NCBI GenBank assembly: GCA_014695255.1
Contig: JACJNX010000077.1
Coordinates: 310,001 to 374,000 of the forward strand
Direction of reading: 5' to 3'
From: Cyanobacteria bacterium FACHB-63
Lineage (GTDB): Bacteria > Cyanobacteriota > Cyanobacteriia > Leptolyngbyales > Leptolyngbyaceae
DNA length: 64,000 bases
Both the position numbers and the translations under genes were made by a program. The notes under the pieces were generated by a model, which made no database searches, was not told the DNA's origin, and worked only from the letters and a program-made list of their open reading frames with translations. Below, in pieces: positions 16,121 to 20,111 of this stretch (position 1 is its first letter; each line of letters starts with the position of its first letter).

Positions 16121-17353
16121 TTATCCTCGTCGCTCTTGTTCAATGATCAGTCGTCGCATCAGCTTACGTTCTACTGTGTCTACTAGCGCATCGATGTTAA
16201 TCGCAGGAGGCGACTGTACTTCAGAAATAGGAGGGTCGGCAGTTGAGTGTGGAGGTCGTGTCTCCTGAGAAGGTGTGATCTCGGTGTGAAAAGACGATCG
16301 CTGTTCCCGTCCTGAGGCGATTTCAACTGGATTCAAGGCGGTCGATGACTCAACTGGCGATGCGGATGGCACAGAAGGCTGCACAAACACAAAGGATGGA
16401 GCAATTGCCGCAGACTGCAAAGGTAAGCTTGGAGCTTCTAAGGTCTGAATCAATGGTGCTTGAATGGGGTGAACTTGCGGTAGTAAGGCGGGTTTGTTAA
16501 TTGCTACGGGTTGGTTTGGTAAGAGGTCAGTCTGAAGTGGAAGTTCAGCGATCGCATTCATCTGCGATCGGATAGGGTGAACTTGCGGCAGCGGAGATTC
16601 TATCGTCTTCATTTCTGACGGTAAAGAAACCTCGCGCTGGAATGGCAATGGAGCAATTGCTTGAAGGTGATAGTGTGATGCGATAACTGGGGGGTGAGCG
16701 GTTGAAGTGAGATGAGATTGCGAACCGATCAACGCTGTCGTTCGTTCCAGAGCGTTTTGAATGGGGTCAACTTGAATTAGATCAGGCTGAGAATAAGATT
16801 CTCCAGCGGGATTGATCGTTGTTTGAAGAATAACGCTTGGATGCGCCGTAGCCTGCAAAGGTGCTGTAGGAGATTCTGGGTTCTGAACAGTTCCTCCAGC
16901 AATTCCTCCAGCAATTCCTCCAGCAGTTCCTCTAACAATAGGCAATGGCGACGCAGCAGGCATATCAGAATGGCTAGGATTTTTTGGAGTTGACTGAGCA
17001 CTTGAAAACTTTGCCTGAACCACAATGGAAGAACTCTCAGAAGCAGAACTCGCAGCAGCACGATCGCGGCTCGATTGAGTGCCGGAAGCAACCCCGCTCC
17101 CCTGCACTGGATCACTCACCCTAGGCTGTGCATAAACAATCGGGAGAGCTTCTGTTTGCCATTCTGCTGCATTCAAGTAGCGATCGGAAAGCTGATGAAA
17201 CAGCGATAATCGATCGCTAAGGAACTGCAATCGGGCATATAACTGCTGGCTCAGTTTTGGATCAATCACACGCGATCGCAGCGGAGAGAGCCGCTTCACT
17301 AACCCAGGATCTAAAGCCGTTTCCCAAGCTTGAGGCAGTGTAGAACTTGACAT
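16121..17353 (-). CDS. CIS operon low-complexity protein with short ordered ends
   Basis: The first 75 residues of this 410-aa protein are helical (VKRLSPLRSRVIDPKLSQQL, FLSDRLSLFHQLSDRYLNA). Residues 80-380 are low complexity, rich in Pro, Ser, Gln, Ala and Ile/Val. Motifs such as PQVHPI are repeated, and a four-copy GGIA-type stretch is encoded by a 12-bp tandem repeat at 16889-16936. The last 25 residues form a basic helix (VDTVERKLMRRLIIEQERRG). Ordered ends joined by a long disordered linker would suit a tether or adaptor. The position between tube 2 and the LysM protein is fixed in many CIS loci for a protein of unknown function. It is not recognisable as a tape measure, although no other candidate exists in the operon. 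Confidence 0.75.
   Translation of the reverse strand: MSSSTLPQAWETALDPGLVKRLSPLRSRVIDPKLSQQLYARLQFLSDRLSLFHQLSDRYLNAAEWQTEALPIVYAQPRVSDPVQGSGVASGTQSSRDRAAASSASESSSIVVQAKFSSAQSTPKNPSHSDMPAASPLPIVRGTAGGIAGGIAGGTVQNPESPTAPLQATAHPSVILQTTINPAGESYSQPDLIQVDPIQNALERTTALIGSQSHLTSTAHPPVIASHYHLQAIAPLPFQREVSLPSEMKTIESPLPQVHPIRSQMNAIAELPLQTDLLPNQPVAINKPALLPQVHPIQAPLIQTLEAPSLPLQSAAIAPSFVFVQPSVPSASPVESSTALNPVEIASGREQRSSFHTEITPSQETRPPHSTADPPISEVQSPPAINIDALVDTVERKLMRRLIIEQERRG
16889..16936 (-). repeat. 12-bp tandem repeat, four copies
   Basis: Four consecutive near-identical 12-bp units (core TTCCTCCAGCA on the plus strand) encode the repeated GGIA/GGTV residues inside the low-complexity CIS protein. All units are in frame. 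Slippage could change copy number without frameshift. Confidence 0.85.
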
Positions 17354-17361
17354 AGCACCTC

Positions 17362-17901
17362 CTAAACTCCCGTCAATCCGCCTAGAGAGGCGATACTGCG
17401 ACCTGCTCCGGCTATTTGTGTTGCTCGATGCTTCTCTAAGCCACTGTGAACTAGCTCAATGCTTTCGATCGCAAGCTGATTGGTATTGCTTGCTTCAAAT
17501 TCTGGGCCTGTCCACTTCACCGGATACGCCGATCTGAAATTCCACCAAACGACCGGAATTCGTTGGCGATCGAGCAGCATAATCGACCCATTCAGCCGTA
17601 ATACATTTCCCTGACTGGCATTCCAATACCAACTCCAGAGAGTATCAATATCCGTAAGTCCACGTGAGAGGACAAGCGGCGGATAGTTCACGCGCGTCGG
17701 AAACTTGTGAGATCCATTTACGCCCCCTTCTTGATACTCTTCCAGCACAATCTCACTACTTAACCCAGAGACACGACTAAAGCCACCTGTTAGCAATCCA
17801 TCGATCTCTAGCAGAAAGTTGTACCCCATATAGGGATCAAGCCGTATTCCAAGTTGCCCTGTGCTAGCAGCAAACGCAGCATTCGCTCCAACAATGCTCA
17901 T
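17362..17901 (-). CDS. CIS inner tube protein 2 (T4 gp19/Afp5-like)
   Basis: This 179-aa protein is a tail-tube protein of the T4 gp19/Hcp superfamily: DPYMGYNFLLEIDGLLTGGF, VSGLSSEIVLEEYQEGG, then FPTRVNYPPLVLSRGLTD with the LWSWYWNASQG helix and ending AIESIELVHSGLE. A 16-residue Ala/Gly/Ser-rich N-terminal extension precedes the fold. CIS loci usually have a main tube protein and a variant placed at the baseplate end. The position next to the LysM and hub genes suggests this is the baseplate-proximal ring. Its ATG overlaps the stop of the DUF6760 coding segment by ATGA. Confidence 0.92.
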   Translation of the reverse strand: MSIVGANAAFAASTGQLGIRLDPYMGYNFLLEIDGLLTGGFSRVSGLSSEIVLEEYQEGGVNGSHKFPTRVNYPPLVLSRGLTDIDTLWSWYWNASQGNVLRLNGSIMLLDRQRIPVVWWNFRSAYPVKWTGPEFEASNTNQLAIESIELVHSGLEKHRATQIAGAGRSIASLGGLTGV

Positions 17902-18089
17902 CGATAGTTCTCCAGGAATGAAGGGGAGTTAGATTGATTGATCTGTTGATTGATTTGAGCGATTTGACTCACCCAATGCTGGCGATCGCGATGAGGCAAG
18001 GACATGATTTGTTCAGGCGACCAGTGAAAGTGATAAGCAACATACGCTACCTCCTGAGACAGCCGATCTAAGGGGTAGCGGTAAACTCC
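17898..18089 (-). CDS. DUF6760 protein, probably expressed by -1 frameshift from the upstream gene
   Basis: This 63-residue segment (GVYRYPLDRLSQEVAYVAYH, then FHWSPEQIMSLPHRDRQHWV) matches the small DUF6760 proteins found between tube genes of CIS loci. The frame has no ATG, GTG or TTG before the conserved N-terminus: an in-frame TGA lies just upstream, at 18104-18106. It sits in the -1 frame of the 125-aa gene. A run of five G on the minus strand (18088-18092) lies inside the 39-base window between that TGA and the TAG of frame 0. Slippage by one base on ATG-GGG would fuse it to the 125-aa protein. The ATGA overlap with tube 2 supports translation of this end. A missing G in the assembly is the main alternative. 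Confidence 0.7.
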   Translation of the reverse strand, partial: GVYRYPLDRLSQEVAYVAYHFHWSPEQIMSLPHRDRQHWVSQIAQINQQINQSNSPSFLENYR

Positions 18090-18445
18090 CCCATCAACAA
18101 CGGCTCAACTTCAAATTCGCCCTGACAATGTGGACACGCGACATGCAGCCGACTATGACCCACTTGATTGATGCGTTGGTAGAAGTCTTGTAAGTAAGCT
18201 AGATCGCCAGAGTATAATCCTTCGATCAGTTTGGGGTTAATCGCTTGAAGGGTTCCGAGCTGGGTGATCACTCGCGAGAGCAAGATGATGATCAGATAGC
18301 CAGGATTGCTTTGCACCCGTGGATCGCGTAGGGGTGCAATCTCATCATAAGCAGTGGAGAGCCGCATCATCCCTTCGCGGTGAACATTGCCCTCCGAATC
18401 GATCAATCCTTGAGGCAGCAGAAATGGAAATTCAGTCTGGTACAT
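18068..18445 (-). CDS. CIS tail-assembly-chaperone-like protein
   Basis: This 125-aa protein reads FPFLLPQGLIDSEGNVHREG, then MRLSTAYDEIAPLRDPRVQS and IILLSRVITQLGTL, a pattern seen in phage tail assembly proteins encoded after the tube gene. Near the end is CPHCQGEFEVE, half of a zinc-ribbon-like motif. Its position between tube 1 and tube 2 is where many contractile phages place the tail assembly chaperone. The frame-0 product ends ...LLMGEFTATP. A -1 shift at the G5 run (18088-18092) would instead give ...LLMGGVYRYP and continue into DUF6760. The chaperone role is inferred from family and position. Confidence 0.8.
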   Translation of the reverse strand: MYQTEFPFLLPQGLIDSEGNVHREGMMRLSTAYDEIAPLRDPRVQSNPGYLIIILLSRVITQLGTLQAINPKLIEGLYSGDLAYLQDFYQRINQVGHSRLHVACPHCQGEFEVEPLLMGEFTATP

Positions 18446-18467
18446 GAAATCATCAGCCTCCTAAACG

Positions 18468-18920
18468 CTAAGACCACTTATCGACGGTGAACCCTTCGTA
18501 GGCAAGCTCCATACTTTCAATAGCAGCACCATCGGTCGTAGCATCAAAGTCGGGCGCTTTCCAACTGGTGGGCCAACAGTTCGTTAGATTCCAGCGAATT
18601 TTTTCCTGTCCCGTTTGATCCAACAACACGATCGAGATATCTCTGCGATCAACGGTGCCACGCGAAAGATTTTGTCGCCACTTCCAGAGTTCATCATTGT
18701 TCGTGATGCCTCGTTGCAGCGTGATATTGGTATAGGAATTGAGTCCGGGTAGCTTTCGCATGGTGAGCGGATCAGTGCCTTCGCGATAGTCACTAGAGTT
18801 CTGTGTGGATGCAAGTCCAGTACACTGGCGAAAACCAGCATGAATAATGCCGTTCCATTCCACAAAGAAGTTATAGCTATGATACGGATCGGGTTTATGG
18901 GGGGGTTTGATGTCTGGCAT
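18468..18920 (-). CDS. CIS inner tube protein 1 (T4 gp19/Afp1-like)
   Basis: This 150-aa protein is the main tail-tube protein. It shows DPYHSYNFFVEWNGIIHAGF, the short CTGL turn, YREGTDPLTMRKLPG, ITLQRGIT and the helix DELWKWRQNLSRG, and ends with AAIESMELAYEGF. It stacks as hexameric rings inside the sheath. It is about 30 residues shorter than tube 2, lacking that protein's N-terminal extension. It lies 36 bp after the second sheath gene and 22 bp before the assembly-chaperone-like gene. Confidence 0.93.
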   Translation of the reverse strand: MPDIKPPHKPDPYHSYNFFVEWNGIIHAGFRQCTGLASTQNSSDYREGTDPLTMRKLPGLNSYTNITLQRGITNNDELWKWRQNLSRGTVDRRDISIVLLDQTGQEKIRWNLTNCWPTSWKAPDFDATTDGAAIESMELAYEGFTVDKWS

Positions 18921-18956
18921 AGTCGCAACCTTCTGGTAAAACGTGCAAAACAGAGT

Positions 18957-20111
18957 TTAGGCAGCAATCGTGACTCCGGTCTCGCCGTGAATGAGACGAA
19001 CCACGATAAATTCATTGGGCAAGGCAGGCGCAAGACCCACCTCAGTCACAACAATCCCCTGCGATCGCTGCTCTGGTGGATTGGTTTCCTCATTGCAACG
19101 CACATAGAACGCTTCTTGAGGCATCTGTCCCTGGAGAGCGCCTTGCTGAAATAAGCGATCCAGGTAGGCATTGAGTTCTCGCTCAATTCGCAGCCAGAGA
19201 TTGCGCTGATTTGGCTCAAAGGCAACCGCCTGTAAGTTAAAGCGACACCACCGCGCAACAGTGAGAAATAACCGCCGAACGTTGATATAGCGCCACGTCA
19301 GTTCTGGGCTGAGCGATCGCGCACCCCAGACTCGAATGCCGCGTCCTGGAAATGCCATCAGACAATTGACGTTACTCAGCGATTGTTGTTCAGCCTGCGT
19401 CAATTGCCAACTCAGATCTAGAACTCCTTCTAAGGGATAGTTCGCCGGAGCTTTGTGCGCTCCAATGGTGCGATCGCTTTGGGCATAGATCCCGGCAATG
19501 TGCCCACAAGGAGGAATGAACGGATCAGCACTCGATCGATGCTCCGGACGAATCCAGGGAAAGTAGAGCGCTCCATTGAGACTACCCTGGCTCAATGCGT
19601 TCTGTTGAGCCTTCACAGCCTCTAGCGTAAAGTCAGCCCCACAGTCGAGAATTGCAAACCGATCTTGCATTCGATCGCAATGCTCTAGAATTGCCTGCTG
19701 CATTTGATAAAGCAAGTCCGGCTCAGGGCGAGACTCACTTTGTGAGGTTTCAACAGCACGCATGAGATCAGGCGCACAGACTAAATCAATCTCTTCTAGT
19801 GCAGTCAACCCTTCCAGCCCTTGCTCTAGTTCTTGGATCGGCGGTTGCGTTGGGTCTAAGCAAACGACATAACAGACCCGTCCGCCATTCTGAAAAAAGC
19901 CTCGCACCACATCAAATAAGTAACTTGGTTCAATGGGCTGAATCTTTTCAAAGAACTGCGTCCAGAGGGTTAGCTTCTGAATTTTTTGATTGGAATTCGC
20001 GATCGTCGCAAATCCCAAAAATGCAGGAACGCCCGTCAGTAATGTGGGATCTGCTTGGATTAGAAGCTCTTCAAATGAAACATTTGCGACCTGAAACGCC
20101 GTTGTGGTCAT
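18957..20111 (-). CDS. CIS sheath protein 2
   Basis: This 384-aa protein is a contractile sheath subunit. The C-terminal half carries the classic signatures: CGHIAGIYAQSDRTIGAHKA with PANYPLEGV, the RIWGARSLS strand, YINVRRLFLTV, and the final EAFYVRCNEETNP and VVVTEVGLAPALPNEFIVV blocks. The N-terminus lacks the KAPGVYVEE segment of sheath 1, replaced by a divergent FEELLIQADPTLLTGVPAFL. It may therefore occupy a special ring or cap position. I use the ATG at 20111, which overlaps the stop of sheath 1 by ATGA. A start at 20129 would lie inside that gene. Confidence 0.92.
   Translation of the reverse strand: MTTTAFQVANVSFEELLIQADPTLLTGVPAFLGFATIANSNQKIQKLTLWTQFFEKIQPIEPSYLFDVVRGFFQNGGRVCYVVCLDPTQPPIQELEQGLEGLTALEEIDLVCAPDLMRAVETSQSESRPEPDLLYQMQQAILEHCDRMQDRFAILDCGADFTLEAVKAQQNALSQGSLNGALYFPWIRPEHRSSADPFIPPCGHIAGIYAQSDRTIGAHKAPANYPLEGVLDLSWQLTQAEQQSLSNVNCLMAFPGRGIRVWGARSLSPELTWRYINVRRLFLTVARWCRFNLQAVAFEPNQRNLWLRIERELNAYLDRLFQQGALQGQMPQEAFYVRCNEETNPPEQRSQGIVVTEVGLAPALPNEFIVVRLIHGETGVTIAA

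Follow-up and report, generated by a model that had tools for sequence, protein, structure and literature searches.

In the 64,000-nucleotide stretch of DNA analysed here (the window), a frame encoding DUF6760 follows a short chaperone-like gene and precedes a tube gene and, as the original prediction stated, has no ATG, GTG or TTG ahead of its conserved YP motif. How, then, is this frame translated? The answer first proposed, a programmed −1 frameshift linking a tail assembly chaperone (TAC)-like protein to DUF6760, is supported by the conserved frame, the heptamer, the spacing and a downstream stem-loop, the last being a feature absent from that proposal. We put at roughly 0.92 the probability that the TAC gene of a contractile injection system (CIS) carries a programmed −1 ribosomal frameshift signal giving both TAC and a TAC-DUF6760 fusion; the occurrence and the efficiency of slippage are what we infer from the sequence.

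Reading frames of the locus

The tail cluster of the window contains two sheaths, two gp19-type tubes, gp25, baseplate J and Phage_base_V, together with a GPD hub, CIS_tube and LysM, Pvc16 and an AAA ATPase and, judged from the genes of the scanned tail cluster alone, is a CIS. The frames that concern us are the following.

18468 to 18920, minus strand: tube protein 1, the upstream neighbour (Phage_T4_gp19, 1.4e-43)
18068 to 18445, minus strand: tail assembly chaperone (TAC), 125 aa, frame 0, the short product (phrog_508, E 3.2e-5; fold comparison)
18068 to 18070, minus strand: frame-0 stop TAG (read from sequence)
18105 to 18107, minus strand: TGA closing the DUF6760 frame upstream (read from sequence)
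17898 to 18104, minus strand: DUF6760 frame (−1), 68 codons and stop, the C-terminal part of the predicted fusion (PF20546; P2 E′ alignment)
17362 to 17901, minus strand: tube protein 2, in ATGA overlap with DUF6760 (Phage_T4_gp19, 2.5e-36)

The DUF6760 frame (locus L027 of our set) is the −1 frame because its codons begin on the third base of frame-0 codons. It is open from 18104 to 17901, ends in TGA at 17900-17898 (minus strand) and matches PF20546 at 57.7 bits, over the curated cut-off of 27. The upstream in-frame TGA was correctly anticipated, although it lies at 18105-18107 and not at 18104-18106. The ATG of tube 2 (17901-17899) overlaps the end of DUF6760 as ATGA; this overlap had been read correctly as well, but alone it does not prove that DUF6760 is translated.

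Two side observations concern the neighbouring sequence. A 410-aa protein follows tube 2 (16121-17353); it matched nothing in Pfam at E ≤ 1, and by position could be a tape-measure-like or linker protein. The C-terminus of the TAC (18125-18136) bears a CPxC motif that amounts to half a zinc ribbon; in 116 of 168 loci a Cys precedes the slip codon by 11 codons, and some short TACs (L016, L158, L163) lack the motif.

The −1 offset is conserved

A TAC-only query returned 585 confirmed stretches, and in all of the best 80, which we took, DUF6760 lies directly downstream in −1. The titles of these 80 name cyanobacteria, Chloroflexi, Proteobacteria, Actinobacteria, Firmicutes, Nitrospira, Acidobacteria, myxobacteria and archaea, and include many metagenome bins. 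Searches with PF20546, which ignore both TAC and frame, found the domain in 26 of 58 relatives, in 28 of 292 genomes of the window's own phylum and, in the phyla of other loci, in 16 of 246 genomes (Streptomyces), 6 of 299 (L083, Lachnospiraceae), 6 of 349 (L051, Caballeronia; three over the cut-off), 60 of 140 (L043, Minicystis), 10 of 196 (L078, Methanosarcina) and 10 of 151 (L066, Herpetosiphonaceae). At most 30 loci entered the pool per genome search, the matches from the Minicystis phylum being the 30 best. From the 224 loci pooled, 22 were removed (21 duplicates, and L175, which lacks DUF6760), leaving 202 non-redundant loci, which are related, so that counts among them are not independent events, and many of which come from metagenome bins.

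DUF6760 is in −1 relative to TAC in 194 of these 202 loci, and in 116 of 124 when the TAC-fetched loci are excluded. The other eight comprise two in +1 and one in frame 0 (L021, L145 and L161, in which the TAC frame seems broken and GGGGGA is kept), one separate gene (L138) and four in which no TAC was found, two of them on short contigs (L029, L136) and two being weak DUF hits (L174, L176). An in-frame TAC-DUF6760 fusion occurs in none of the 198 loci that have a TAC, which argues that short and long products are both wanted. The original prediction had named alignment across CIS loci as its check: the −1 offset is joined by the slip heptamer in 189 of the 194 loci, and 149 of those 189 have no start codon in the 40 nt before YP.

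These counts also bear on whether the window merely holds a broken gene, or a fused gene with six Gs that was miscounted in sequencing. One added G would indeed fuse the window frames, but the offset recurs in many assemblies, accompanied by synonymous-site conservation, and the zero count of in-frame fusions is again at odds with such an error, which we regard as barely credible.

Two further loci or groups deserve mention. A second CIS locus (L005, G000:C6:7219-10353) is present in the genome of the window; it shares the G5 slip site, the −1 offset and the stem, and its TAC has diverged to 45% identity with that of the window. Directly upstream of the TAC in L018, L158, L160 and L163 lies a protein with a TAC-like ...INGL end, which may be a second chaperone-like gene.

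A slippery heptamer at the end of the chaperone gene

The G5 run predicted at 18088-18092 on the minus strand is correct and stands in register for slippage.

18086 to 18092, minus strand: slip heptamer G_GGG_GAG (frame 0: ATG GGG GAG), with G5 at 18088-18092 (read from sequence)

In the 189 loci counted above the slip heptamer stands in the frame-0 register, and 174 of the 194 −1 loci have at least five Gs in that register (exactly five in 145, six to eight in 29). The background is low: within TAC bodies, five Gs in the slip register occur at 23 of 19,939 codons and any counted slip heptamer at 83 of 19,939, and GGG makes up 259 of 1,253 Gly codons, the P-site codon being GGG by definition in the 174 G-run sites. 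A heptamer lies within the last 12 codons before the stop in 185 of 194 loci in register, versus 31 and 4 of 194 in the other registers. Among the 174 G-run sites, the A-site codon is GAA in 97, GAG in 52, GGG in 15 and GGA in 10; Tyr lies 15 nt beyond the slip in 163 of them and 18 nt beyond it in the other 11; and the frame-0 stop follows the slip by 0 or 1 codon in 158.

Another 15 of the 194 loci carry heptamers other than G5: GGGAAAT in the archaeal L207-L210, GGGAAAC in L211, GGGAAAG in L172, and TTTTTTA, TTTTTTG or AAATTTT in L072, L077, L083, L088, L094, L167, L170 and L171 (Firmicutes by title or search), of which L072, L094, L167 and L171 have TTTTTTG or TTTTTTA. The slip site of L200 is doubtful, having been counted only through CCCCCCG/CCCGGGG. 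At the TAC-body rate of 83/19,939, chance alone would be expected to place a heptamer in about two of the 20 loci without G5. Among named organisms, Haloferax larsenii (L227) has G_GGA_AAC in register, with an ATG after the heptamer, and Streptomyces clavuligerus (L230) has G_GGG_GAA.

The heptamer of the window is not a strict X_XXY_YYZ, since re-pairing of the A-site GAG on GGA needs a middle G·U. Re-pairing in both the P and the A site is available in 25 G-run sites (A-site GGG or GGA), and in the 15 non-G sites by definition of the scan.

The same G run could in principle act during transcription, slippage of the polymerase adding a G to a share of the mRNAs and so joining the frames. The homopolymer is present, an extra G gives the same frame, and six to eight Gs occur in 29 of the 174 sites. 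Yet the run is exactly five Gs in 145 of the 174, and a five-G run is short for polymerase slippage; GGGAAAT and AAATTTT, which stand at other loci, are not homopolymers; and an RNA stem at frameshift spacing, described below, is not expected to be needed. We consider transcriptional slippage very improbable.

Could DUF6760 instead be a separate protein, made by termination-reinitiation at a non-standard codon (AUA, AUC, GUA and others) with the G run as a Shine-Dalgarno sequence? Annotated DUF6760 starts include ATA in Nostoc sp. UHCC 0926, an internal TTG in Rhodococcus sp. WB1 and ATG in Haloferax larsenii, and a genuine ATGA start occurs in four of the loci from the actinobacterial search, in keeping with separate initiation. 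Five of the 194 −1 loci lack a slip site, and four of these (L135, L137, L140, L141) have an ATGA start; L215 has GGGGAAA plus an ATG. Only the four ATGA loci, L138 and perhaps L215 combine a start of their own with the lack of a slip site, a finding said beforehand to count against the frameshift. An ATG, GTG or TTG follows the slip in 40 of the 189 slip-site loci, so separate initiation could operate there. Against this, the other 149 slip-site loci offer no such codon in the 40 nt before YP, and the G run lies merely about 1-4 nt from the would-be start. Reinitiation also leaves unexplained the single G-run register in 174 of 194 loci, the replacement heptamers, the 15-nt spacing to Tyr in 163 of 174 sites, and the stem. 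We judge it quite unlikely, and return to the −1 frameshift with the RNA downstream of the heptamer.

A conserved stem-loop follows the heptamer

Downstream of the slip site, the window contains two arms that form a perfect 7-bp complement.

18074 to 18080, minus strand: 5′ arm of the stem, CGCTACC, 5 nt after the heptamer
18045 to 18051, minus strand: 3′ arm of the stem, GGTAGCG, inside the EVA-motif codons

In 144 of 168 loci a conserved stem NGCUACC/GGUAGCN′ begins 5 nt past the heptamer. Among the 173 loci that remained of the 194 after removal of near-identical, short or N-bearing entries, at least six of the seven base pairs form in 140, and the outermost pair in only 105. The codons that encode the arms are strongly skewed. 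After the slip, Tyr is TAC in 154 of 172 loci (577 of 1,139 elsewhere) and Pro is CCC in 143 of 172 (340 of 1,133 elsewhere), with NGC as the codon ahead of Tyr in 160 of 172; in the EVA motif, GAG is used in 150 of 152 (1,007 of 1,872 elsewhere) and Val is GTA in 147 of 152 (158 of 1,480 elsewhere). The Tyr and Pro codons were counted in 172 of the 194 loci and the EVA codons in 152; of the loci left out of the latter count, 20 are without EVA and 22 do not begin YP. Protein sequence alone would not require such constancy in the codons that follow the slip.

Folding of the 51-nt region was compared with 200 synonymous-codon randomisations and gave a mean z of −2.97, with 133 of 173 loci below −2, whereas three control regions put through the same test gave mean z values of −0.38, −0.49 and −0.59, with 15, 8 and 19 of 173 below −2. 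For pairing and covariation we used a set of 118 of the 173 loci (A4), chosen by an identity filter only and hence the fair set. On it 84.9% of cells pair, versus 31-64% in slid registers. The covariation score was 0.141 versus 0.099 (sd 0.007) in shuffles, and double-change cells numbered 34 versus 15.8, values reached in each case by 0 of 500 shuffles. Two of the five covariation measures on A4 do not clearly beat shuffles; pairs with a double change numbered 4 versus 2.6 (reached by 48 of 500 shuffles) and further pair types 12 versus 11.7 (287 of 500). Double changes from TAC/GTA to TAT/ATA gave a Fisher p of 1.9e-7 over 153 loci, a value uncorrected for relatedness. RNAalifold returned a 9-bp stem with a bulged A on set A3, whose 67 loci were hand-picked mostly for having the stem and in which the window row is set 14 bases off; on the mixed A4 it returned no consensus structure.

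A different stem, GACGUACGCG/CGCGUACGUC, stands at the same place in 13 loci with 8-10 pairs, 12 of the 13 having a slip site; ten of these loci come from the searches of the Streptomyces and Herpetosiphonaceae phyla, and the others are L095, L102 and L108. Another 20 of the 173 loci fit neither stem, and Rfam gave no match at E up to 1 within 17300-19000. On sequence evidence, then, a heptamer, a 5-6 nt spacer, a stem-loop and an early frame-0 stop together are the arrangement of a −1 programmed frameshift.

Two other candidate elements were set aside. We do not claim an upstream Shine-Dalgarno-like stimulator, for which the signal is weak and, in the window (GAAGTTGAG), poor; GTG encodes the Val five codons ahead of the slip in 64 of 81 cases, and the upstream region pairs with the 16S tail somewhat better than its synonymous versions do (mean z −0.86; 42 of 168 below −1.5). 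A hairpin pairing the G run with CCCC was discarded on logical grounds, because the slip site would lie inside it.

What the two proteins are

Protein profiles were built from the best 80 of the 585 TAC-search loci, 58 of which plus the window form the TAC set (A5) and 54 plus the window the DUF6760 set (A6). All 59 members of A5 matched phrog_508, a tail assembly chaperone family, the best at 5.9e-11 and the window at 3.2e-5. The predicted TAC structure has a mean pLDDT of 85, and the nearest PDB chains among the Foldseek candidates were yqbN (Z 6.6), which we take to be a TAC, and the HK97 TAC (2ob9; Z 6.1), moderate scores that lie below a level safe alone. Foldseek itself listed no PDB chain with E < 0.001, the HK97 TAC ranking seventh (E 1.3) and yqbN eighth (E 1.4). 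Against viral models, the six best matches, all with E < 0.001, were a baseplate protein, a T4-like baseplate hub assembly protein or uncharacterised, and Mu FS-gp41 stood at rank 20 with a Foldseek probability of 0.99 and E 0.022.

DUF6760 is predicted to be a small helical protein; among the viral models Foldseek found none with E < 0.001, the best being uncharacterised or, with E 0.43, a phage tape-measure chaperone. In hhalign the DUF6760 profile aligns with that portion of P2 E+E′ which is reached by frameshifting (probability 93.6, E 2.1e-7), the controls P2 Ogr and P2 gpE each giving a probability of 0.1, so that the comparison with P2 E/E′ drawn at the outset is apt. Phage_P2_GpE (PF06528) was matched weakly by 17 of the 55 DUF6760 members at E up to 0.1 (best 0.0092). 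The TAC profile did not match P2 gpE, so we do not claim that the two are homologous. With tblastn, neither the window TAC nor its DUF6760 had a match among 50,697 phage records.

Proposed mechanism and products

In the mechanism that we propose, most ribosomes would read frame 0 and stop at TAG 18070, yielding the 125-aa chaperone, while a minority would slip back one base at G_GGG_GAG, where tRNA-Gly could re-pair perfectly from GGG to GGG and the stem-loop starting 5-6 nt downstream would hold the slipping ribosome. Slipped ribosomes would then continue in the DUF6760 frame to give a TAC-DUF6760 fusion. The predicted fusion has 182 aa and a mass of 21.1-21.2 kDa for P-site or tandem slip alike (21.1 kDa computed, where about 22 kDa had been suggested). 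The window junction would read ...LLMG-GVYRYP after a P-site slip and ...LLMG-EVYRYP after a tandem slip; the GGVYRYP junction anticipated for the window fits the former, but the junction may read GEVYR instead. The corresponding predicted peptides are LHVACPHCQGEFEVEPLLMGGVYR for the P-site slip and LHVACPHCQGEFEVEPLLMGEVYR for the tandem slip, with LHVACPHCQGEFEVEPLLMGEFTATP for the frame-0 end.

By analogy with lambda gpG/gpGT and P2 gpE/gpE+E′, the short form may coat the tape-measure protein while tube subunits would be recruited through the DUF6760 portion of the fusion; given these two roles, the ratio of short form to fusion would govern tube assembly. We lean, with some reserve, towards a broader reading: that a two-part RNA signal, a G run and a stem-loop written in the YP/EVA codons, has been retained by cellular CIS in different bacterial phyla as well as in archaea, and re-formed with different heptamers or an alternative stem after drift, setting a required ratio of chaperone to chaperone-DUF6760 that controls tube assembly.

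Discussion

The original prediction held that such a frameshift had not been described for CIS, and in the open-access literature we indeed found no description of a −1 frameshift in a contractile injection system, nor any mention of DUF6760. Within the available text of PMC13222765, PMC8528098, PMC8718954 and PMC9022992, the co-occurring CIS and frameshift terms belong to a reference title, an unrelated mutation or phage tail proteins. For archaea, a 2021 review counts one reported −1 case besides viruses, plus a suggestion for magnesium chelatase; if our reading is true, the archaeal loci would provide a −1 frameshift of a cellular machine.

In the records inspected, DUF6760 is annotated as stand-alone with an ATA, TTG or ATG start, so that a probable CIS assembly factor may have been misread. 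The annotated starts in L225 (2863-3033) and L226 (2884-3027) are ATA or an internal TTG, and the TTG start cuts off the YP motif. Codon-optimising or rebuilding such a machine would unknowingly destroy both slip site and stem. The phage rule of two chaperones from one gene by −1 slippage also becomes testable in a cellular machine.

Comparison with known systems

The kind of frameshift that we propose is already known from lambda, P2 and actinophages. The predicted TAC fold may resemble those of phage Mu FS-gp41 and the HK97 TAC, at low sequence identity and with six viral models matching better. Mu also has a TAC frameshift of the known kind. HK97 appears in the GeneTack survey, the available text of which names a phage TAC cluster related to it (PMC3711429).

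Lambda gpG/gpGT is alike in pairing a short chaperone with a low-level −1 fusion, which for the CIS is predicted; unlike the CIS, lambda is a virus, and its tail is non-contractile. In the available part of PMC5009743, a 30:1 ratio of the two lambda products is described as crucial to tail assembly, and G_GGA_AAG, carried as GGGAAAG by L172, is listed as highly shift-prone.

The actinobacteriophage TAC frameshifts belong to phage genes, whereas ours lie in cellular CIS, but the heptamer is shared: the accessible portion of the PRFect paper (PMC10885494) describes a motif 'fivetwo', GGGGGAA, in about a thousand SEA-PHAGES cases, with G·U re-pairing on GGA, and this is the heptamer of 97 of the 174 CIS G-run sites.

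P2 gpE/gpE+E′ differs in its first part, to which TAC has no match, in the slip sequence, which in CIS is mostly G_GGG_GAR, and in that the CIS stem is conserved; the gene that follows is a second tube gene in the CIS locus and the tape-measure gene in P2, and the CIS is cellular. The available text of PMC3931495 describes P2 E′ as lacking a ribosome binding site and using a T6G slip. In both systems the chaperone gene comes after sheath and tube and the second frame is −1, and the P2 slip T_TTT_TTG (annotation of AF063097; register checked) has counterparts in the TTTTTTG/TTTTTTA of L072, L094, L167 and L171.
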